From the NCBI GenBank assembly GCA_002083825.1, contig DAZV01000037.1:1-64000 (forward strand): DNA of 64,000 nt, written 5' to 3'. The notes under the pieces were generated by a model. That model was not told where the DNA came from and searched no databases. It worked only from the letters and a program-made list of their open reading frames with translations. The position numbers were made by a program, and so were the translations under genes. This stretch comes from Candidatus Sericytochromatia bacterium S15B-MN24 CBMW_12. Its GTDB lineage: Bacteria; Cyanobacteriota; Sericytochromatia; S15B-MN24; UBA4093. How positions within the stretch are numbered: position 1 is the first letter of the stretch; each line of letters begins with the position of its first letter. Positions 50,639 to 61,041 of the stretch are shown here, in pieces.

Positions 50639-51748
50639 ATGAGCATCCGCGTTCCGGTCACCCTGGCGATCGCGCTTCTAGCCCCTCTGAGCGGCTGCTT
50701 CATGTGGCCCAGCACCAACGTGCAGCCGCCCGGCTGGGTCGAGCCGCCCGTCGAGGGCAGTTCGTACGCTCCGGGCCAGCCCTCCCAGAACCCCCTGATC
50801 GAGCTCTCGCGCCCCGGCTTGAGCGGCCTCTCCCTGGCAGGCAGCGCGGATCCCGGAGCCGCGGACGGCACCGCCGGCGCGGCCCGGTTCCAGGAACCCG
50901 AGGGCCTGGCGATCGCCCCCGATGGCACCGTCTACGTCGCCGAACCCTACGCCTACCGCATCCGGAAGGTGAGTCCAAGCGGACAGGTCTCGACGCTCGC
51001 GGGAGGCGCCCTCGGTCGAGCCGATGGAACCGGAAGCAGCGCCCAGTTCTTCGGACCCAAGGATCTGGTCGTCGGCGAAAACGGCATCCTCTACGTCGCG
51101 GACTTCGATGCCATTCGCCAGATCATGCCGGACGGCAGGGTCACCACCCTCGCCATCCAAACCACCGAAGGCCCCTGGAATCCCGTCGAACTCCTGGGCA
51201 TCGCCCGCACCACGGACGGCGCCCTGTTCGTCTCCACCACCACCGGCATCGACCGGATTCAGGGAGGTTTCGCCAGCCGCTGGGTCGGAGCCGACGCCAA
51301 GGGATTCCGTGACGGCGCCGGAACCGCCGCCTACTTCAACCTCCCCCGCAAGCTCGCAGTCGATAGCCAGAACAACCTCTACGTCGCCGACTTCGGAAAC
51401 CTCCGGATCCGCAAGGTCACCCCCAACCGGCAGGTCACCACCCTCGCCGGCACCGGGATCCTGGGCTTCACCGACGGGACGAGCACCCAGTCTCGGCTGA
51501 ACTTCCCGACGGGAATCACGGTGGATGGCGAAGGGAACGTGATCGTGGCCGACACGTACAACCATGCTTTGCGGATGATAGCCGCCGATGGGCGAGTCAC
51601 GACCCTAGCCGGAAACAATACCGCGGGGTTTCAGGACGGCCCTGCGGCCTCCTTGCTCTTCGATCAGCCCACCGACGTCGCGGTGGGGACGGACGGCCGC
51701 ATCTACGTGGCCGATCGCCAGAACCACCGCATTCGGGTCTTGCGATAA
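50639..51748 (+). CDS. NHL-repeat beta-propeller lipoprotein
   Basis: Lipobox PLSGCFMW; repeats DGTVYVAEPYAYRIRKVSPSGQVSTLAG, QNNLYVADFGNLRIRKVTPNRQVTTLAG. Confidence 0.9.
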   Translation: MSIRVPVTLAIALLAPLSGCFMWPSTNVQPPGWVEPPVEGSSYAPGQPSQNPLIELSRPGLSGLSLAGSADPGAADGTAGAARFQEPEGLAIAPDGTVYVAEPYAYRIRKVSPSGQVSTLAGGALGRADGTGSSAQFFGPKDLVVGENGILYVADFDAIRQIMPDGRVTTLAIQTTEGPWNPVELLGIARTTDGALFVSTTTGIDRIQGGFASRWVGADAKGFRDGAGTAAYFNLPRKLAVDSQNNLYVADFGNLRIRKVTPNRQVTTLAGTGILGFTDGTSTQSRLNFPTGITVDGEGNVIVADTYNHALRMIAADGRVTTLAGNNTAGFQDGPAASLLFDQPTDVAVGTDGRIYVADRQNHRIRVLR

Positions 51749-51757
51749 GGAGGCCGC

Positions 51758-52936
51758 ATGTCGTATCGCTTCCTGATCCTCGCGCTGTCGCTGAGCCTGG
51801 CGGCCTGCAGCGCCCCCCCGTCCTCCCCGGGCGGCAGCGCGACCCCGTCACCTGCGGGCAGCCCCACTGCGGCTCCGCTGCCCTCGAACTCTCCGCCAGT
51901 CGGCGAGCCCTTTCCCGAGTTCGACCCGCTCGTCCGGACCGTGGCGGGAGACGGAACAGCGGGCCACCAGGACGCCGCGGACGCCCGTCAGGGGCGGCTC
52001 GACGTTCCGACGGGCATGGTCGTGATCCGGGGCGATACCTACATCGCCGACTCCGCCAACCACCGCATCCGGCGGCTCACCTACGACGGCGCGCTGGAGA
52101 CGGTGGTCGGAACGGGCGATCGCGGCAACAACGGCGACGGCACCAATGGCCCCATGCTCATGCTGGACACGCCCTACAAGGTCACGGCCGACGAGGCCAC
52201 CGGAAACGTCTTCTTCAGCGAGCTGGGCGGTAACCTGGTCCGCTGCTTCGACATCACGCAGCGCGTCATCACGATAGCCGGCGGCGGAGACTTCCTTCCC
52301 GACGTGGGAACCTCCATGAGGGGAACCTACGTGCAACTCGCGGAGCCTGCGGGACTCGACTTCGACTCCGCCGGCGAGCTCTACGTGGCCGAGCGAGGCG
52401 GGCACCGGATCCTCCGGATTTCCCCCGACTGGATGGTGACGGTCGTGGCCGGAACGGGCTTCCCAGGCTTCGCGGGAGACGATGGCCAGGCGCTGGATGC
52501 CGAGTTCGACCGGCCCTCGGATGTTTTCGTGGACGACCGGGACAACCTCTACATCGCCGATACCGGCAACCACCGCATCCGGCGAATCGGCGTCGACGGC
52601 ACGGTCTCGACGGTCGCCGGAACCGGCGTGGCGGGTGACGCGGGGGACGGGGGGCTGGCGACGGAGGCGCAGCTGAACCATCCCACGGGCATCTCCATGG
52701 ACGCCTTCGGGAACCTCTACATCGCGGACTCGGAGAATCACCGGATCCGCCAGGTGAGACCGGACGGAACGCTGATCACGATCGCGGGGCAGATCTTCGG
52801 CGGCTTCGGCGGCGACGGGGAGTTGCCCGCCCGGGCCCGCTTCAACATCCCCACGGGGATTGCCGTCGCTCCGTGGGGATCCTTGCTCGTCGCCGACCGC
52901 GACAATCACCGCGTCCGGGAGTTCGGGATTCCCTAG
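51758..52936 (+). CDS. NHL-repeat beta-propeller lipoprotein
   Basis: Lipobox LAACSAP; repeats RDNLYIADTGNHRIRRIGVDGTVSTVAG, FGNLYIADSENHRIRQVRPDGTLITIAG. Confidence 0.9.
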   Translation: MSYRFLILALSLSLAACSAPPSSPGGSATPSPAGSPTAAPLPSNSPPVGEPFPEFDPLVRTVAGDGTAGHQDAADARQGRLDVPTGMVVIRGDTYIADSANHRIRRLTYDGALETVVGTGDRGNNGDGTNGPMLMLDTPYKVTADEATGNVFFSELGGNLVRCFDITQRVITIAGGGDFLPDVGTSMRGTYVQLAEPAGLDFDSAGELYVAERGGHRILRISPDWMVTVVAGTGFPGFAGDDGQALDAEFDRPSDVFVDDRDNLYIADTGNHRIRRIGVDGTVSTVAGTGVAGDAGDGGLATEAQLNHPTGISMDAFGNLYIADSENHRIRQVRPDGTLITIAGQIFGGFGGDGELPARARFNIPTGIAVAPWGSLLVADRDNHRVREFGIP

Positions 52937-53082: not shown

Positions 53083-53898
53083 CTAGGAAGGTGTCGCCGG
53101 ATTCGCCTGCCGCTCGATCGGATAGCAGAGCGCGAGGTAATAGGGAACGAAACGCTCGCCTCGACCCTTGATAGCCAGGTGGATTCCGCACCAAGAAACG
53201 CGGGTTACCGTCCCGTTCAGCGGGCCAATCCAGAAGGACTCTGCCGGCTGGATGGGGGCGGTGATCGTGAATAGCAGGCGCACGAAAAGCGTCGAAGCGG
53301 TCAAGCCCAGGGGAACGGCTCCGAGGAGGGCGAGCCAGGGCAAAACCAGGTCCAGCCCGACGTTCCCGAAAGCGAGCATCGACGAGAGCCCCAGAGAGAT
53401 CGTCAGCGCGCCCGTGACGAAGGCGGGGAGCAGCGCGAATCGCAACCGGGTGCGGAGGAGCCATTGCGCGATGCGAGTTTCCCGCCGGAGGGGGGCGGGT
53501 GAGTCGATGCGCTCGCAATGGGAAATGAGCTCGGCCAGCAGCGCGGCCACCTCGTCCGGTCTCTCGGCGCGATCCAGTCGCTCGCCGATGCTCGTCACCT
53601 CGAGATCGGCCGCGTCAGACCAATCTTCCAGCCACTCGAGACGCTCGGTGAACTCGAACTCACGCTCCTCGATGCGAGAGACTGAGTCCCTAAGCTCGTC
53701 GAGTTCGCGCTGAAGCTCCGCTACGCGCTCCTCGTGGACGGTCGTGGGTCCGGGTTCGCCCTTGATGAACGCGATCAGATCCTGGGTCGAGGGTCCGCCA
53801 ACCAGGTGATGAGGGGCGACCGTGTTGCGATGAAAGACATCCTTCGATCGTGGCTGAGACGGGAAGGGGATCGGTTCGATCCAGATGGGCTGGCTCAT
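53083..53898 (-). CDS. Membrane protein with N-terminal coiled coil, two TM helices and a possible MscS-like beta-domain tail
   Basis: Overlaps motB stop by 4 nt; coiled coil VHEERVAELQRELDELRDSVSRIEE; tail GPLNGTVTRVSWCGIHLAIKGRGERFVPYYLAL. Confidence 0.7.
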   Translation of the reverse strand: MSQPIWIEPIPFPSQPRSKDVFHRNTVAPHHLVGGPSTQDLIAFIKGEPGPTTVHEERVAELQRELDELRDSVSRIEEREFEFTERLEWLEDWSDAADLEVTSIGERLDRAERPDEVAALLAELISHCERIDSPAPLRRETRIAQWLLRTRLRFALLPAFVTGALTISLGLSSMLAFGNVGLDLVLPWLALLGAVPLGLTASTLFVRLLFTITAPIQPAESFWIGPLNGTVTRVSWCGIHLAIKGRGERFVPYYLALCYPIERQANPATPS

Positions 53899-54629
53899 GG
53901 GTGTTTCTGCTCCGTCTTGGCGGGAAGCGCGGTCGTGCGCGGTTCCGGGTAGAGGCGAATGACGATCCGGCGGTTCTTGGCCTGGTTCGCGGGGATCGGC
54001 TTTCCCGCGGCATCTCGGTTGGGGATCTTGGCATGGATATCCGCGTAACCGGCTGCTTTCAGGCGGATCTTGTCGACATCCGCATCCAGCATGAACCTCA
54101 CGACGTTGGTCGCCCGGCGCGTGGAAAGCTCCCAGTTGGAGGGAAACTCGGCGGTCCGGATGGGGTTATCATCCGTGTGGCCTTCCACCTCGATGATGTA
54201 GCTCTTGTAGGTCTCGGTCTTGAGTTCCTCGGCGATCTCGGTGAAGGTCGGCTTGATGGCGGGCAGGAGATCGGCTTTTCCGCTGATAAAGAGAATGCTG
54301 GAGGCGAACTCGACAACGACGCCCTTCTTGTCCTGAGTGACCTCGACCTCGTCCTGGAGACCCTTGCTCTCGACGATGCGCTCGATTTGCTCACGTATCT
54401 CGGTCAGGGGCTTGGCGGTTTCCTTGCCCGAGAGGTCCTTCTGCATCTGGGAAGAGACCTGCTCGTAGGCGTTCATGTCGATATTCGACATCGCCAGGAT
54501 CATGATGAACAGCGCCATGAGGTTGGTGATGGTATCGGCGTAGGTGATGAGCCAGCCCTCGTCATCCTGAGGGACGCTCGAGCGGTTGCCGCCGAAGGGG
54601 CTTCGGTTTCGGCCGAAGGGACTGGCCAT
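53895..54629 (-). CDS. motB: MotB-like stator protein (OmpA/peptidoglycan-binding domain)
   Basis: WLITYADTITNLMALFIMILAMSNID TM with conserved Asp; OmpA region VEGHTDDNPIRTAEFPSNWELSTRRATNVVRFML. Confidence 0.92.
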   Translation of the reverse strand: MASPFGRNRSPFGGNRSSVPQDDEGWLITYADTITNLMALFIMILAMSNIDMNAYEQVSSQMQKDLSGKETAKPLTEIREQIERIVESKGLQDEVEVTQDKKGVVVEFASSILFISGKADLLPAIKPTFTEIAEELKTETYKSYIIEVEGHTDDNPIRTAEFPSNWELSTRRATNVVRFMLDADVDKIRLKAAGYADIHAKIPNRDAAGKPIPANQAKNRRIVIRLYPEPRTTALPAKTEQKHP

Positions 54630-54632
54630 GGG

Positions 54633-55457
54633 CTAGGCCCTCTCGGGGGCCTTCTCCCCCTTTTTCGCGTTGAAGTGATCGTAGTGGAAGGCCGGGTCCA
54701 TCAAGGCATTGAGGCGGTCCTGGACGTAGATCGGGGGTTTCTTCTGGGCGATCATGACGATTCCCTCGAGGAGCATGTAGCGGCGATGCCGCTCGATTTC
54801 CAGGACCTGCTGGGTCTTGGTGGCCGCCGGCATGAAGAGCAATCGCGCCGCCATGACCCCGTAGAGGGTGGCGAGGAGCGCCACGGCCATGGCCGGCCCG
54901 ATCTTCGAGGGATCGGAGCCCATGTTCGACATCATGATGACCAGACCGACGAGGGTCCCGACCATCCCGAAGGCCGGAGCATGCCCGCCCATCTGATGAA
55001 GAATCGTCGCGGGAACCATGCGGCGCTGATGCGCCGACTCGATGAAATCCCCCAGGAAGAGTCTGAGATCCGGTTCCTTGTAGCCGTTCATGAGCAGGGT
55101 CAAGGCGTACCTGAGAAAGCCGTCGAGCTTCTTGTCGGTGGCGGTCTGGTCCTCGATGGCGCCCAGACTCTGCTGCGAGAGGTAAGACCATTCGACCATC
55201 TGCTTGATGTCGTTGCGAAGCGTACTGGGCTGGATGGGCTGCATCACGAAGATCTTGAGCAGCGTGGTCATGGCCTTCCAGACGTAGCGGGTGCGGGCGC
55301 CGATCAAGGCAGCGGCCAGCGTTCCGCCGAAGATGATGGCGAAGGGTTCGAGGCTCCAGAACATCCCGAAGTTGTCGGTGTGCCCGGCGATCGCCCAGAG
55401 GGTCAACCCGAAGCCCATGACCAGACCCAGAACGGTTGAAATCGAGATCATCGGCAT
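54633..55457 (-). CDS. motA: MotA-like stator protein
   Basis: AFGMVGTLVGLVIMMSNMGSDPSKIGPAMAVALLATLYGVMAARLLFMP. Confidence 0.93.
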   Translation of the reverse strand: MPMISISTVLGLVMGFGLTLWAIAGHTDNFGMFWSLEPFAIIFGGTLAAALIGARTRYVWKAMTTLLKIFVMQPIQPSTLRNDIKQMVEWSYLSQQSLGAIEDQTATDKKLDGFLRYALTLLMNGYKEPDLRLFLGDFIESAHQRRMVPATILHQMGGHAPAFGMVGTLVGLVIMMSNMGSDPSKIGPAMAVALLATLYGVMAARLLFMPAATKTQQVLEIERHRRYMLLEGIVMIAQKKPPIYVQDRLNALMDPAFHYDHFNAKKGEKAPERA

Positions 55458-55467
55458 ATCAGCGCAC

Positions 55468-56622
55468 CTACCTGAACGCCAAGCCGAAGGTGGCGTGGTA
55501 GGCCATGCCGCCGTACGTCATCGTGCCTGCGAGCGTCGAATCGGACGCCATCTTCAGGCTCTGCTGGGGAATGTAGGTGAAGCCCAGGTTCATGAAGAGA
55601 TCGGGCGTGAAACGGAGCAGGAAGCCCATCTTCCCGGAGGACGGCTGCGCCAAGGCCTCGGAAAGCGAGAACGCGAGCCCCGGCCCCGCATACATGTTCA
55701 CGACGCCGATGCTGTTCGCGCCGACGAAAAGCGGATCGAGCCTCAGGAAGAACAGGGGAGTCACGTTGAGCATGCCGTGATACAGGCTGCGCTCGACCCC
55801 GCCGGCCTGGAGGTACTCCGCGTCGAGGCCGACGGCGAGATTCTCCCAGAAGTAGGTGTTTCGAAGCGCCATCATGCCCGCGCTCAACGAAAGATTGGCG
55901 TGCTTCCCGGCGCCGCCCGCCGGATTCGAGGCCCGGTGCGCCGCGAAGCCCGTGACTCCGGAATAGACGTAGACACCGTTATCGCGGGTCTTGCGCTCCG
56001 CTTCGTCGCGACGGGCCCGTTCGGTCCGGCGCGCCTCTTCCTCGGCCTTCGTGCGCATCAGCGCGGTCTGCCGAACGGCGTTGAAGTCGTAGGAGTAGCG
56101 GTGCGTCCAGACAATCTCGCCGTCGGAGGCGCGAACGAGCTTGAGATGGACCATGACGACCTGGTTGGTGACGAACGGCGCGTACATGAGCACGGCGTCC
56201 GCTCCGAGTTCCTTGGCCATCTCGCGCAGGCGCTCCGTCGACTCGATGGTCGTGCTGACCTGAAGGACCGTGGGCGTGGAGACCACGCGCCGGACCTTGG
56301 ACTCGCGCGACTCCAGCAGCTTGAAGCGCCTCAACGGGATCAGCAGCTCCTGGAGGCGATTCTCCACCAGCAGATCCAGCTTGTCGGTTTCGGGTCGGCG
56401 GCGCTCGTTGAAGAGGAAGACCCGGAGCAACGTCGGATCGACCTTGCCGATCTCCGCGGGTAGGGACGGCAGGATCTGCTCGGCCGCCTGCGCGTAGTTC
56501 AGAAGATCCGTCACCAGAGGCTCCGCGTCGGACTCGGCCGGCGCCGCGAACGCGGCGGGAGCCCCAAGGGACGCGGCGAGCGACAGCGCGAGGCCTCCCG
56601 AAAGTACCCAGTTAGCGCTCAC
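55468..56622 (-). CDS. Secreted protein with FlgO/CsgG-like N-terminal domain and C-terminal beta-barrel-like region
   Basis: Signal peptide; LREMAKELGADAVLMYAPFVTNQVVMVHLKLVRASDGEIVWTHRYSYDF; amphipathic strands ending HATFGLAFR. Confidence 0.65.
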   Translation of the reverse strand: MSANWVLSGGLALSLAASLGAPAAFAAPAESDAEPLVTDLLNYAQAAEQILPSLPAEIGKVDPTLLRVFLFNERRRPETDKLDLLVENRLQELLIPLRRFKLLESRESKVRRVVSTPTVLQVSTTIESTERLREMAKELGADAVLMYAPFVTNQVVMVHLKLVRASDGEIVWTHRYSYDFNAVRQTALMRTKAEEEARRTERARRDEAERKTRDNGVYVYSGVTGFAAHRASNPAGGAGKHANLSLSAGMMALRNTYFWENLAVGLDAEYLQAGGVERSLYHGMLNVTPLFFLRLDPLFVGANSIGVVNMYAGPGLAFSLSEALAQPSSGKMGFLLRFTPDLFMNLGFTYIPQQSLKMASDSTLAGTMTYGGMAYHATFGLAFR

Positions 56623-56624
56623 GA

Positions 56625-57299
56625 TTACCTCCTCCGATTCCGAATCCAGTCAAGGGCGTTGCGGGTATCCGTCAACCGCGGATCCAGCTCGAGGGCGCGA
56701 GACCAGGCCTCCTCGGCTTCGCCATCCCGGCCGAGCTTGAAGCAAAGCGAGCCTCTCAGGGCATGCAGCGTCGCCACTTCATCATCCACTCCGAGCGCGG
56801 CATCGACGGACTCCAGCGCCTGGCGGTAGCGTCCCTCCCGGGCGAGCATGGGCGCGCGGAACAGCGCATCGGCCACGATCCGAACCCGCTCGGATACCGC
56901 GGGAGTCGGCCTCGCGGAAGGATCCTGCGGCTTCGCCGGCAGAGGCGACGCCTCATCCGCGAGCAAGTACGGCTCGTAGGGTTCCTCGGAGTCCGACGAC
57001 GCGGAAGTGATCGCCTCGTCCATCCCGCCTCCGATTGGCGACCCGGAGGCAGGACTGGGTTCGGGAACGGGCGTGGGCTTGTTCATCTCGATGCGCAGGA
57101 AGAAATCCGGCTGATTCGTATCCAGCAGCGAGTCCACGTCCACGGTTTCTTGACCGCGTTTCAGGTGGATGAGGCCTTCGCGCTGCATAGGAAGCGGCGA
57201 GGACCAGACCTGCTGGATGAAGAGAACGGGGGCGGCGACGGCGAGCGTCAGACCGTAGGCGATCGCCCAGACCTGCCCGCGACTCGGCATGTTCGACAT
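56625..57299 (-). CDS. Membrane-anchored TPR-repeat protein
   Basis: N-terminal hydrophobic VWAIAYGLTLAVAAPVLFIQQVW; TPR APMLAREGRYRQALESVDAALGVDDEVATLHALRGSLCFKLGRDGEAEEAWSRALELDP. Confidence 0.8.
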   Translation of the reverse strand: MSNMPSRGQVWAIAYGLTLAVAAPVLFIQQVWSSPLPMQREGLIHLKRGQETVDVDSLLDTNQPDFFLRIEMNKPTPVPEPSPASGSPIGGGMDEAITSASSDSEEPYEPYLLADEASPLPAKPQDPSARPTPAVSERVRIVADALFRAPMLAREGRYRQALESVDAALGVDDEVATLHALRGSLCFKLGRDGEAEEAWSRALELDPRLTDTRNALDWIRNRRR

Positions 57300-57301
57300 C
57301 C

Positions 57302-59143
57302 TTAGTTACCTTCGCCCTTCGGAACGATCATCACGCGGGACGTCTGGCGAATCCGGTTGAGAAGATCGCGGCGCATGGCATCCCGGGCCGCGGGGTCCGC
57401 ATCGAGAAGGGAGGGGCCCGCCAGCGCCTCGTCGACGACCTGGCGACCCCGCACGTTCAGGGCTCCGGTCAGCGCGGCGACGACGTCGGCCGGCGCGTCG
57501 CGAAGCACCTCGGCGAGTTGCTCCCTGGGGAAGTCCCGGACCGCATCGCGCAGGGTCTCCATGCGAATCTTGGGAATATCGTCGAAGGCGAGGTAACTCT
57601 GCTTCACCTGCTGCAGGACCTGAGGATTCTGAGTCGAGAGTTCCTGCAAGATGCGCTGCTCCATCTGGCGATCGGAGTGATCCAGCAGACCGACCAGAAG
57701 TTCGATGCCGTTGGTGACGGACGTCGAGAAGCGCGGAGCCTCCGAGGCCTTGCGGGCGAGGTGCAGGGCGATGTCTTGAAAGGCCGCCATGGGAATCGCC
57801 GAGAGATCGCCCATGGCCGCCATGGTGGCTCCGAGCTCTCCGGGGTTCATCAACTGCATCAAGCCGATCGCGCGATGCGGGGGCAACTGGGAGTAAACCA
57901 GCGCCTGGACCCGCGGGGATTCCTCCTGCAGGACGAAGAGGAGCTGGGAATCTTCCAGGACTTCGAGGAAGGCGAAGGGATCCCGGCGTCGTGAAGTCGT
58001 CCGGCCGCCCGCGGCATGCCGATCCCGCGAGATCGCTCGAATCGCCTCGGCCATGGCCTGCTGAACCTCTTCGACGGGAACCTCGCCGCGTTCGAACCGG
58101 CTGAGCTCGATGGTGCGCCAGAGTTCATCCGACACGCCGGGAAAGAGCCGGCGACTGACACCCGTGCCGAGGGTCCGGACGAGGATCGCGGCGCGCTCCA
58201 TGCCAAGCTCCTGAGCCAAAAGCTGCCCCATGTAGCGTTCCGCGAGCTCGGGTTCGCTTAGAAGCAGCATGGTCAACTCGTGACGAAGCGCCTCGGCATT
58301 CGAACTTGCCGAATCGGCGCCCGACGCCACGGGAGCGGAGGGCCCGGAAGATAGCTGGACGGTAGCCGCGGCGGATTCGGGTGCCGGACGCCGGCGCGAA
58401 ACGAGCCATCCCAGACCGAGGCCGCCGGCTCCCGCCAGAAGCAACCAGACCCACGACGGCAGCGAACGCTCCATGGGCGCCGCACCCGTTTGGGTCGGAA
58501 AGTCGCGGCGGGTGATGTCGATGTCCAGGTCGCGCGCAAACTGATGATCCACCTTCTGGGTGATCATGTTCCGGATGAAGTCCTCATCCTTGCTCGTCAA
58601 GGACGAGGGCAGCACCACCGAGACCCGAAGACGCTCGATCTTGCGCTCCGCGAATTCCCGTTCCGGAGCGGCAGCCACCGGGGGGGACCAAGACGGCGGA
58701 GGGGTTGCAGCCGCCTGGACTTGGGGAGCGGGCCTCGCGCGCTCCGAAGAAAGGCCGGGCAGGACGGGCGGCTCGTCGCTGTCGTTCTCGACCATGCCCA
58801 GCGCGGGCAAGGGAGGATTGACGGGAGTCTGCGGGATCGGGGCCTGGGGCGCTCGCACGGCGATGGCCTCCGGTTCGGCGAGGAGAGCCTTGACTTGAAT
58901 GATGAAGTGCTCCGGGCCGAGATAGGCGCTCAAGTTGCGGTCCAGGCTCTCTTCGAGAAAGCGCTCGTAACTCAAGAGTCCCAGACCCGCTTCCGGGCGC
59001 GGCATCTCGGGGGGATTCTGCTGGGCGATGGCAGTCACGGGCAACAAGGCCACGCCCACCAAGGCAACCAGAACAACGGCTTTACGGCTCTTCAAGGGTT
59101 CGAAACCTCGCAACTCGGTCGAATGCTCTTTCGACGATACCAA
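57302..59143 (-). CDS. FliF(C-terminal)-like/FliG-like fusion protein
   Basis: Signal peptide; FliF-like YERFLEESLDRNLSAYLGPEHFIIQVKALL and KIERLRVSVVLPSSLTSKDEDFIRNMITQKVDHQFARDLDIDITRRDFP; TM PSWVWLLLAGAGGLGLGWLV; FliG-like QLLFVLQEESPRVQALVYSQLPPHRA and LLDHSDRQMEQRILQELSTQNPQVLQQVKQSYLAFDDIPKIRMETLRDAVRDFPREQLAEVLRDAPADVVAALTGAL. Confidence 0.78.
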   Translation of the reverse strand: MVSSKEHSTELRGFEPLKSRKAVVLVALVGVALLPVTAIAQQNPPEMPRPEAGLGLLSYERFLEESLDRNLSAYLGPEHFIIQVKALLAEPEAIAVRAPQAPIPQTPVNPPLPALGMVENDSDEPPVLPGLSSERARPAPQVQAAATPPPSWSPPVAAAPEREFAERKIERLRVSVVLPSSLTSKDEDFIRNMITQKVDHQFARDLDIDITRRDFPTQTGAAPMERSLPSWVWLLLAGAGGLGLGWLVSRRRPAPESAAATVQLSSGPSAPVASGADSASSNAEALRHELTMLLLSEPELAERYMGQLLAQELGMERAAILVRTLGTGVSRRLFPGVSDELWRTIELSRFERGEVPVEEVQQAMAEAIRAISRDRHAAGGRTTSRRRDPFAFLEVLEDSQLLFVLQEESPRVQALVYSQLPPHRAIGLMQLMNPGELGATMAAMGDLSAIPMAAFQDIALHLARKASEAPRFSTSVTNGIELLVGLLDHSDRQMEQRILQELSTQNPQVLQQVKQSYLAFDDIPKIRMETLRDAVRDFPREQLAEVLRDAPADVVAALTGALNVRGRQVVDEALAGPSLLDADPAARDAMRRDLLNRIRQTSRVMIVPKGEGN

Positions 59144-59221: not shown

Positions 59222-59761
59222 ATGACCGTCAATCATCTCGTTTCCGTCCTGACCGGATGCTCCTTGGCCCTCGCGGCGATCGCGGGGCCTGCCTCGGCGG
59301 AGCCCGCCGAGAAAGCCGCGAGCGGTTCCATCCAATTCCGGCTCCGGCATCCCGAACCCGGATCGCCCCAAGCTGGGACGTCCGAGCACGACGAGGCCAT
59401 CTGGGAGGACGTGAATCCCGCCTGGATTCGGGAAGCCCAGGAAGGCCTACTGGAGAGTCGCCACCCAGTCGCTCAAGGCGAAGATCCGAGGTCGACGCTT
59501 TCCGGCGCGGTCCTCTCCGGACTGACGCTGTTGCCGGTGGTCGGGCAGTTCGCCAATCATGAGTGGATGAAGGGGTTGCTCGTTCTTGGCACGGGTATCG
59601 GCCTCGCGACCGGCATCACCCTCGGAAACCGCCGCGGAAATCCCCAGTTGGTTCAGCTGGGCACCCTGGGGCTTTATCCGCTCGTGGGCTTCAGCTTGAT
59701 CGACGCTTACGGCACGGCGCAGCATCGTAACAGCCAGAAAACGGCGAGATCCGGCGACTAG
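59222..59761 (+). CDS. Secreted/membrane hypothetical protein
   Basis: Signal peptide GCSLALAAIAGPASAEP; two C-terminal hydrophobic segments; RBS ggagg. Confidence 0.6.
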   Translation: MTVNHLVSVLTGCSLALAAIAGPASAEPAEKAASGSIQFRLRHPEPGSPQAGTSEHDEAIWEDVNPAWIREAQEGLLESRHPVAQGEDPRSTLSGAVLSGLTLLPVVGQFANHEWMKGLLVLGTGIGLATGITLGNRRGNPQLVQLGTLGLYPLVGFSLIDAYGTAQHRNSQKTARSGD

Positions 59762-61041
59762 AAACGCAAGGTATTCGAGACCGAGTAGTAGGCGCCCCGA
59801 GCATGACCGCCGAAGCCGTTCATGGCGCCCATCGCGAGATCCAGGCGGAAGCCCGGAAAGTCGAGACCCGCCCCAGTGGCGAGCAGCAAGCCGCGATCCC
59901 CCCCCAGCGCGAAACCGGCCCGCAGCGGTAACCAATCCAGGGCGCGCAGCTCCGAGCCCAGTTTCAGCTCCGGGATGCTGGAAACGCCGTAGCCGTCTCC
60001 GAAGCCCGCCTGAAACTCCCCGCTGAGCGTCAGCGGCCGCCAGGGGCGAATTGCCCCGGAAAGCCTGGCGTAGGGCGGCAGCCACGTCTCGCGCGATGCC
60101 TCCACGCGGTCGCTCACTTGAAGCGCGTCGCGCGTGACCGCCCCGAAATCGGTGACGGACCCCGAGGCATCCACGATCGAGAAGGGATCCACCTTCAAGG
60201 TGTAGTCCTTGATCTGGATGCGGTTCCAGTGCATGACTCCGACGTTGCCGAGCACGGCGCCCCAGGTCAGACGCTCGCCGAGCACCCCCGCGACGCCAAA
60301 GTCCGCGGCGATGCCGTTCCCATGGGTGGAAACCTCCGTCTCGACGCGAGCGTCCGCCGAGAACTCCCCCGAATCGCTGATGCTCAGCAGCGATCCGCTG
60401 GCCTCGTTAACCCGCGCATAACCCAGACCCCGGAGATAACGCAGGTTCATCCCGATCCCTCCGTCCACGCCGAGCGGAAAGGCAAAGGAGGATCCGACCG
60501 CAGCATAGGCCGTCGCCAGGGATCCCTGGAGGTTATCGATCCGCACGTTGGGAACCGCGGCGTTGCCCTGGAGGGCTAGCGCGACGATATCCCGAGGAAA
60601 GTCGAGGCCCTTGGTGTCCGCGAGGGCATTCACGAAGAAGCCCGAATGGGACCCCGGCATGGCGAAGGCGAGCGTCGTCCCGGCATCGAGGATCAGACGC
60701 CAACCCGTTCCGGGAAGGCTCTCCAGGACCCCCTCGACGTTTTCGGGGGAAACCGATTGCGTATCGAGCAAGTTCGCGAGTTCGCCGATGGTGAGCACGT
60801 TGTTGCCGAACCCGAGGCTCAAGCTGGGAAGGACGGTGAGCGAGACGCGATCGCGGTTGCCGGCCTTGCCGAGCAGGGCCGGGTTCCAGAGCATGGCGTC
60901 CGCGTCATCGGCGATCGCCGTGTAAGCCCCCGCCATTCCCATGCTCCGGGCATTTGCCAAGGCCAGAACCGGCTGGGGCAACATTCCTGAGGCCAGAGCG
61001 AGGGCCAAGAAGCAGCGGGCGAGCGTCGTGGAGCGTCTCAT
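59758..61041 (-). CDS. Outer-membrane beta-barrel protein (TraF/PorV-like superfamily)
   Basis: Signal peptide then ANARSMGMAGAYTAIADDADAMLWNPALLGKAG, typical of this superfamily; C-terminal YYSVSNTLRF. Confidence 0.75.
   Translation of the reverse strand: MRRSTTLARCFLALALASGMLPQPVLALANARSMGMAGAYTAIADDADAMLWNPALLGKAGNRDRVSLTVLPSLSLGFGNNVLTIGELANLLDTQSVSPENVEGVLESLPGTGWRLILDAGTTLAFAMPGSHSGFFVNALADTKGLDFPRDIVALALQGNAAVPNVRIDNLQGSLATAYAAVGSSFAFPLGVDGGIGMNLRYLRGLGYARVNEASGSLLSISDSGEFSADARVETEVSTHGNGIAADFGVAGVLGERLTWGAVLGNVGVMHWNRIQIKDYTLKVDPFSIVDASGSVTDFGAVTRDALQVSDRVEASRETWLPPYARLSGAIRPWRPLTLSGEFQAGFGDGYGVSSIPELKLGSELRALDWLPLRAGFALGGDRGLLLATGAGLDFPGFRLDLAMGAMNGFGGHARGAYYSVSNTLRF

Follow-up and report, generated by a model that had tools for sequence, protein, structure and literature searches.

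Here, we describe a gene from a Sericytochromatia bacterium that encodes in one chain a FliF-like RBM3 domain, a single transmembrane (TM) helix and a FliG-like region, and whose product, judged from its sequence and from those of its neighbours and relatives, is probably the subunit that forms both ring and rotor in a compact rotary motor distinct from the flagellum. The gene lies in a 64,000-nucleotide stretch of contig DAZV01000037.1, hereafter the window, where it heads an operon that continues on the same strand with genes for a TPR protein, an LpoB-like/outer-membrane-barrel protein, MotA and MotB (Table 1).

Table 1. The fusion gene, its domains and neighbouring genes in the window
Feature	Position	Strand	Basis and remarks
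Predicted outer-membrane protein, DUF5723/TraF_2-like	59758..61041	-	operon membership uncertain
RBM3-TM-FliG fusion protein	57302..59143	-	613 aa; Pfam, PDB sequence search, alignment, AlphaFold2, profile comparison, Foldseek
RBM3 first half (helix + strand, residues 56-88)	58880..58978	-	AlphaFold2 model; hhalign to FliF RBM3
Proline-rich, predicted disordered insert at FliF beta-collar position (residues 89-167)	58643..58879	-	pLDDT < 50; hhalign
RBM3 second half (strand-helix-strand, residues 169-215)	58499..58639	-	AlphaFold2 model; hhalign
Single TM helix (~residues 229-249)	58397..58459	-	hydrophobic stretch then RRRP, by eye in translation and alignment
FliG_N-like domain (residues 314-380), FliF-tail-like helix before it	58004..58204	-	PF14842 1.7e-4, 22.6 bits against a cut-off of 25; tail by eye
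FliG_M domain, EHPQ loop changed to ESPR	57737..57949	-	PF14841 2.2e-8
FliG_C torque domain, R/R/E at K264/R281/D288	57347..57643	-	PF01706 3e-9; alignment
TPR protein B	56625..57299	-	PF07719; profile match to Marinimicrobiota tprB
Protein C: signal peptide, LpoB/FlgO-like periplasmic domain, small outer-membrane beta-barrel (predicted)	55468..56622	-	FlgO 0.037, sub-threshold; AlphaFold, Foldseek
MotA	54633..55457	-	PF01618 2e-20; PomA/MotA-type NCBIfam matches below cut-offs; tree
MotB, plug and OmpA domains, channel Asp in 'TYADTITNLM'	53895..54629	-	PF13677, PF00691
Coiled-coil/TM protein F	53083..53898	-	4-base overlap with motB; not found near relatives; membership uncertain

A conserved fusion with a reduced periplasmic half

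The fusion starts at a TTG codon, with a second TTG at 59095 right before the signal peptide, and its domains follow the order signal peptide, split RBM3, one TM helix, FliF-like tail and FliG N, M and C. Above cut-off, Pfam recognizes FliG_C (3e-9, residues 501-599) and FliG_M (2e-8, residues 399-469), and a phmmer search of the PDB returns FliG structures at 1e-11. A first-pass annotation had proposed a natural FliF-like/FliG fusion with a signal peptide, a FliF-like periplasmic segment, one TM helix and a FliG-like M/C region, and this description holds: the protein is read from one minus-strand frame, Pfam, profile comparison and the structural model agree on its parts, and the suggested search for the same domain order in other genomes recovered five full-length orthologues and one partial copy. 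The annotation was also right that a single chain fixes ring and rotor at a 1:1 ratio. Its proposed structural comparison came out clearly for FliG, as all 13 Foldseek matches with E<1e-3 to the AlphaFold2 model (mean pLDDT 58, from a shallow alignment of 4 sequences only) are FliG, and in part for FliF, whose RBM3/S-ring entries follow with probabilities of 0.7-0.97 but weak E values of 0.2-1.5, a level of structural support below that of FliG. Since the orthologues share this architecture in one frame, six consistent frames with that of the window included, and dN/dS is 0.15 for one orthologue pair (G007/G008), the fusion is a constrained gene and no frame artefact, and a pseudogene or an assembly error is ruled out.

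In profile comparison (hhalign), the periplasmic part matches an RBM3 profile built from the FliFs of the analysed genomes with 97% probability (E 3e-11). Controls stay at 0.0-0.4% for 20 column-shuffled alignments and at 0.1-0.8% for three unrelated families; PF08345 (FliF_C) has no direct match in the window's protein. The earlier observation that RBM1, RBM2 and the first TM helix of FliF are missing is confirmed, as PF01514 (YscJ_FliF, RBM1/RBM2) finds no match in the fusion at E<=10, the signal peptide leads directly into RBM3 in 6/6 sequences, and the two-TM layout of FliF is absent. The proline-rich linker had been thought to take the place of RBM1/2, but the predicted structure runs from a helix and strand through an 80-residue disordered proline-rich stretch to a strand, helix and strand, which puts the linker within RBM3 itself, between beta-1 and beta-2. 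This is the position of the beta-collar in FliF, and hhalign places the linker there too.

FliG domains and torque sites

Compared with the FliG of the MotAB-FliG structure 8ucs, the FliG_C domain gives a TM-score of 0.82 (target length, 86 columns), and against the TIGR00207 FliG equivalog model the fusion scores 45.3 bits, under the cut-off of 226.7 bits. The alignment confirms the arginines that the first-pass annotation had placed at the K264-like and R281-like positions, and K/R at 264 and R/K at 281 are found in every fusion and Marinimicrobiota FliG aligned. The same annotation had described the torque charges as only partly kept, with no obvious D288/D289 pair; D289 is indeed lost from the fusions, as is R297, which the Marinimicrobiota FliGs lack too, but an acidic residue is kept at 288 in the fusion family, Glu in the window and Asp in five other fusions. 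Among the Marinimicrobiota FliGs, position 288 is D or E in L158, L159, L161, L163 and L165 and is deleted or replaced in the rest, and the deletion or replacement of the D288/D289 positions in most copies counts against a motor. The FliM-binding loop, present as EHPQ or ENPQ in the flagellar FliGs aligned, is degenerate in all fusions, that of the window included, and in the Marinimicrobiota FliGs; that the fusions keep the charges at 264, 281 and 288 while losing this loop supports a motor.

The operon of the fusion

The order of the first three genes is kept in relatives where the contig allows, with MotAB following in G004, and in G010 the fusion is immediately preceded by a MotB gene. The presence of a dedicated MotA and MotB in the operon in both the window genome (G000) and G004 supports a motor. 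Pairs of MotAB that group with the window's were found on other contigs of G007, G009 and G010, where (L098-L100) they are followed, as seen by eye, by a GNAT-type acetyltransferase-like gene. All the parts expected of a stator are encoded in the window, namely the MotA channel domain and the MotB plug, channel Asp and OmpA domain; in the alignment, the MotB Asp is invariant and the TM3 Pro and E98-like Glu of MotA are kept. The MotA R90 position, by eye, is occupied by Gln in the window, by Lys or a similar residue in family f4 and by Arg in most Marinimicrobiota, and the Gln counts against a motor. A Zorya defence system was considered and rejected, as ZorB models recognize the window's MotB only through MotB homology and no ZorA, ZorC, ZorD or ZorE was found among the proteins scanned.

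In its TPR part, TPR protein B reaches 99.3% (E 1e-20) with Marinimicrobiota tprB, while tprA, the TPR protein used as control, reaches 80% (1e-5). Protein C is predicted to combine an LpoB/FlgO-like domain with a small outer-membrane barrel, its AlphaFold model (mean pLDDT 60.6) matching LpoB, NspA, Ail and OmpA in Foldseek; profile comparison gives it no homology signal to Marinimicrobiota carb or to the tprB barrel, and the carb gene has no match in the window operon. At the other end of the operon, the DUF5723/TraF_2-like gene also adjoins the fusion in G004, there transcribed divergently. Beside the operon, at 50639-52936, lie two tandem secreted or lipoprotein-like proteins with NHL-type repeats, recognized by eye.

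An unfused counterpart in Marinimicrobiota

A scan of genome contigs found nothing with the single window protein as query, but with an alignment as query it brought up the Neomarinimicrobiota contig L107. This contig carries a related operon in the order carb-tprA-tprB-motA-motB-RBM3only-fliG, with two TPR genes after carb and, before fliG, a gene for a FliF-like protein reduced to RBM3 (P0002), which matches PF08345 at 26.3 bits (cut-off 23.8) and has no PF01514 match. When the seven L107 genes were searched by tblastn over L107 and 20 further Marinimicrobiota neighbourhoods (L148-L167), motA, motB and fliG were present in the same order in 21/21; in some of them carb, tprA, tprB or the RBM3 gene scored under the limit of the search or lay beyond the contig end. 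Every RBM3-only protein collected (20/20) ends in a FliF-like helix with [IV]-x(2-3)-W[LMI], a tail of the FliG-binding type, and a similar helix stands right before FliG_N in the fusion, where, in our reading of the alignment, the loss of a stop codon separating neighbouring genes would leave it. The fusion corresponds to such a pair of neighbouring RBM3-only-FliF and fliG genes joined into one. The two operons correspond further in MotA and FliG, each of which falls in the same clade, and in the RBM3 profile match, the MotB tree being neutral.

A FliG of the Marinimicrobiota type (E<=1e-40) occurs in 157/245 Marinimicrobiota genomes, FliF (PF01514) in 39/245 and SpoA (FliM/FliN) domains in 41/245. 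At least 124 of the 157 carriers have neither a FliF nor a SpoA domain, a count compiled by hand from the search outputs, and MAG incompleteness cannot plausibly explain these 124 joint absences. The Marinimicrobiota genome G393 has another motA, with two motB-like genes behind it (L158:16663-18891), about 7 kb from the RBM3-FliG operon.

Phylogeny and distribution

In the FliG tree, the fusions and Marinimicrobiota FliG fall on one side of a branch supported at 100/99 (100/100 without the orphan copies), with the flagellar FliG of their own class, of other members of the phylum and of flagellated Marinimicrobiota on the other. Constraining the fusion and own-class flagellar FliG to one clade is rejected (41.7 log units worse, p-AU 6e-5), and the MotA tree returns the same grouping of the module with Marinimicrobiota at 100/100; branches are long in all trees, including those of the fusions. 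The MotB tree, in which the module pairs form one group between Marinimicrobiota and flagellar MotB, neither supports nor contradicts this. Nor is the fusion a rearranged flagellar MS/C-ring: the window genome has a separate canonical fliF-fliG pair on contig 27, and with the trees this rules out the fusion as the MS/C-ring of the same genome's flagellum.

Full-length fusion orthologues occur in G004, G007, G008, G009 and G010, and a partial copy in G006, among 18 genomes of the class, all carriers belonging to one order (Tanganyikabacteria/Sericytochromatia). Searches covered two phyla, in which many genomes are incomplete MAGs, and the fusion was absent outside the class among 387 genomes drawn from the phylum; it was not found in the flagellated same-order genomes G002, G003 and G005, and a search of plasmids gave weak FliG matches only. 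All genomes that encode the full-length fusion have canonical FliF and FliG as well, and the window genome has just two FliG_C genes, the canonical one and the fusion. Orphan FliG copies of other families (L073, L077, L078) and G009:C1, a probable false positive, were set aside, no MotAB being recognized beside any of them in the gene lists. Highly diverged extra FliG-like genes occur in other families of the class (L085:8758-9825 in G015, L086 in G014, L087 in G001), again with no MotAB recognized beside them.

Some genomes of the class carry a second, complete FliF whose C terminus continues into a FliG_M domain (L035:3840-5717 on the minus strand, contig 47 of G000; L093:8999-10930; L092:8654-10609 on the minus strand; L102:7525-9432). 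In G000 and G009 it lies in an operon flgB-flgC-fliE-fliF-flhA, with FlgI/FlgH/FlgG/FlgF (partly named by eye), and an NHL-type-repeat protein similar to those in the window adjoins the contig-47 operon. No FliG_C gene stands beside it in G000, and G011 and G012 are without any FliG_C match; the second FliF may belong to a flagellar-type system in which FliM attaches straight to the MS ring and a torque domain is missing.

A probable motor apart from the flagellum

Because its FliG and MotA group with the Marinimicrobiota operon, and that FliG type is mostly carried without FliF, FliM or FliN, the module is most likely a MotAB-driven rotor apart from the flagellum. We infer that RBM3 domains would form a periplasmic ring anchored in the inner membrane and FliG_C domains a cytoplasmic cog, which MotA5B2 units, held to the peptidoglycan by the OmpA domain of MotB, would push by ion flow. 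The ring would turn with no export apparatus, rod, hook or filament and with neither FliM nor FliN, and its torque would probably be passed outwards to the operon's own TPR and outer-membrane proteins, driving movement over surfaces (that it is gliding-like is a guess) or another outer-membrane task. Most of the conserved surroundings, namely TPR and outer-membrane proteins, point to an envelope-spanning machine. On balance, we favour a flagellum-free motor family, in which MotAB drives a FliG cog on an RBM3-only ring linked by TPR proteins to the outer membrane, found across most Marinimicrobiota and gene-fused in non-photosynthetic relatives of Cyanobacteria. Such a family would either be left over from a rotor that had yet to acquire its export apparatus or have escaped secondarily from the flagellum.

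What counts against a separate motor is that canonical FliF and FliG occur in all genomes with a full-length fusion, where a flagellum-linked role is possible. The fusion might then be an accessory of the cell's own flagellum, forming an extra ring that draws another set of MotAB units around the canonical rotor, while protein C takes a role at the outer membrane like that of Vibrio FlgO, in line with the weak FlgO match and LpoB/FlgO-like predicted fold of that protein. We regard this as unlikely, though worth keeping in mind: the fusion lies outside any flagellar gene cluster and has lost the FliM-binding loop, its FliG and MotA group with genes mostly from genomes without detectable flagella, and the flagellated order members G002, G003 and G005 do without it. 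It is improbable that the fusion lends a torque domain to the class's second flagellar-type system. Such a FliF with its own FliG_M and no FliG_C exists, and the fusion is the one FliG_C gene of the window genome besides the canonical copy; yet G003 and G005, near-complete genomes with two FliFs (one of the longer, 611-619-residue second type), lack the fusion, as do the genomes of families f5-f7.

The module might also be a flagellum-derived ring or tether that has ceased to rotate and acts as an envelope scaffold or a MotAB-gated channel. The loss of D289 and R297, the deletion of D288/D289 in most Marinimicrobiota copies and the changed R90 of the window's MotA would fit this; the retention of K/R264 and R/K281 in every fusion and Marinimicrobiota sequence examined, the invariant channel Asp of MotB and the constant company of MotAB in Marinimicrobiota speak against it, and we consider it improbable.

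Significance and comparison with known systems

FliG is regarded as a protein of the flagellum alone; if our reading as a separate motor is true, the module would be, to our knowledge, the first FliG-bearing motor outside the flagellum. MotAB-FliG torque generation would then be used outside flagella, a minimal rotor would be at hand for testing the evolution of the flagellar motor, and a motility or envelope machine would be suggested in an abundant, largely uncultured marine phylum. The 1:1 stoichiometry fixed by the fusion would help structural work. HMMs of fliG, fliM and fliNY are used as motility markers (PMC10359470), and fliG alone would over-call flagella. Neither a natural FliF-FliG fusion nor an RBM3-FliG-MotAB module was found described in a search of open-licence papers other than preprints, and a survey of MotAB evolution mentions FliG once, as the flagellar partner (PMC12505986).

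The module resembles the flagellar motor in its RBM3 fold, FliF-like tail, FliG N, M and C domains with K264- and R281-like charges, and MotAB with channel Asp, plug and OmpA domain. It differs in that the fusion is one chain in place of two, without RBM1/2 or the first FliF TM helix and with its FliM-binding loop lost, that its operon has no genes for FliM/FliN, export, rod, hook or filament, and that its sister family resides in genomes without detectable flagella. TolQR, ExbBD, AglRS, GldLM and ZorAB (5:2 motors) likewise place a MotAB-type ion-driven motor outside flagella, apparently acting across the periplasm, and as far as we know they have no FliG cog and no FliF-type ring.

FliF and FliG are also joined in one chain in a Salmonella fliF-fliG fusion mutant and in engineered FliF-FliG fusions (PMC6079021, PMC11481574); because the Salmonella strain is motile, if chemotactically defective, a covalent 1:1 rotor can work. 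Those are mutants or constructs with a complete FliF, whereas the gene described here is naturally conserved, reduced to RBM3 and has non-flagellar relatives. The unfused Marinimicrobiota operon (L107, L148-L167) shares MotA, MotB, an RBM3-only FliF-like protein, FliG and a tprB-type TPR protein, and its FliG and MotA cluster with those of the window; it differs in keeping RBM3 and FliG as separate genes, in having carb and a barrel-like N terminus on tprB, and in an extra coiled coil between RBM3 and the TM helix.
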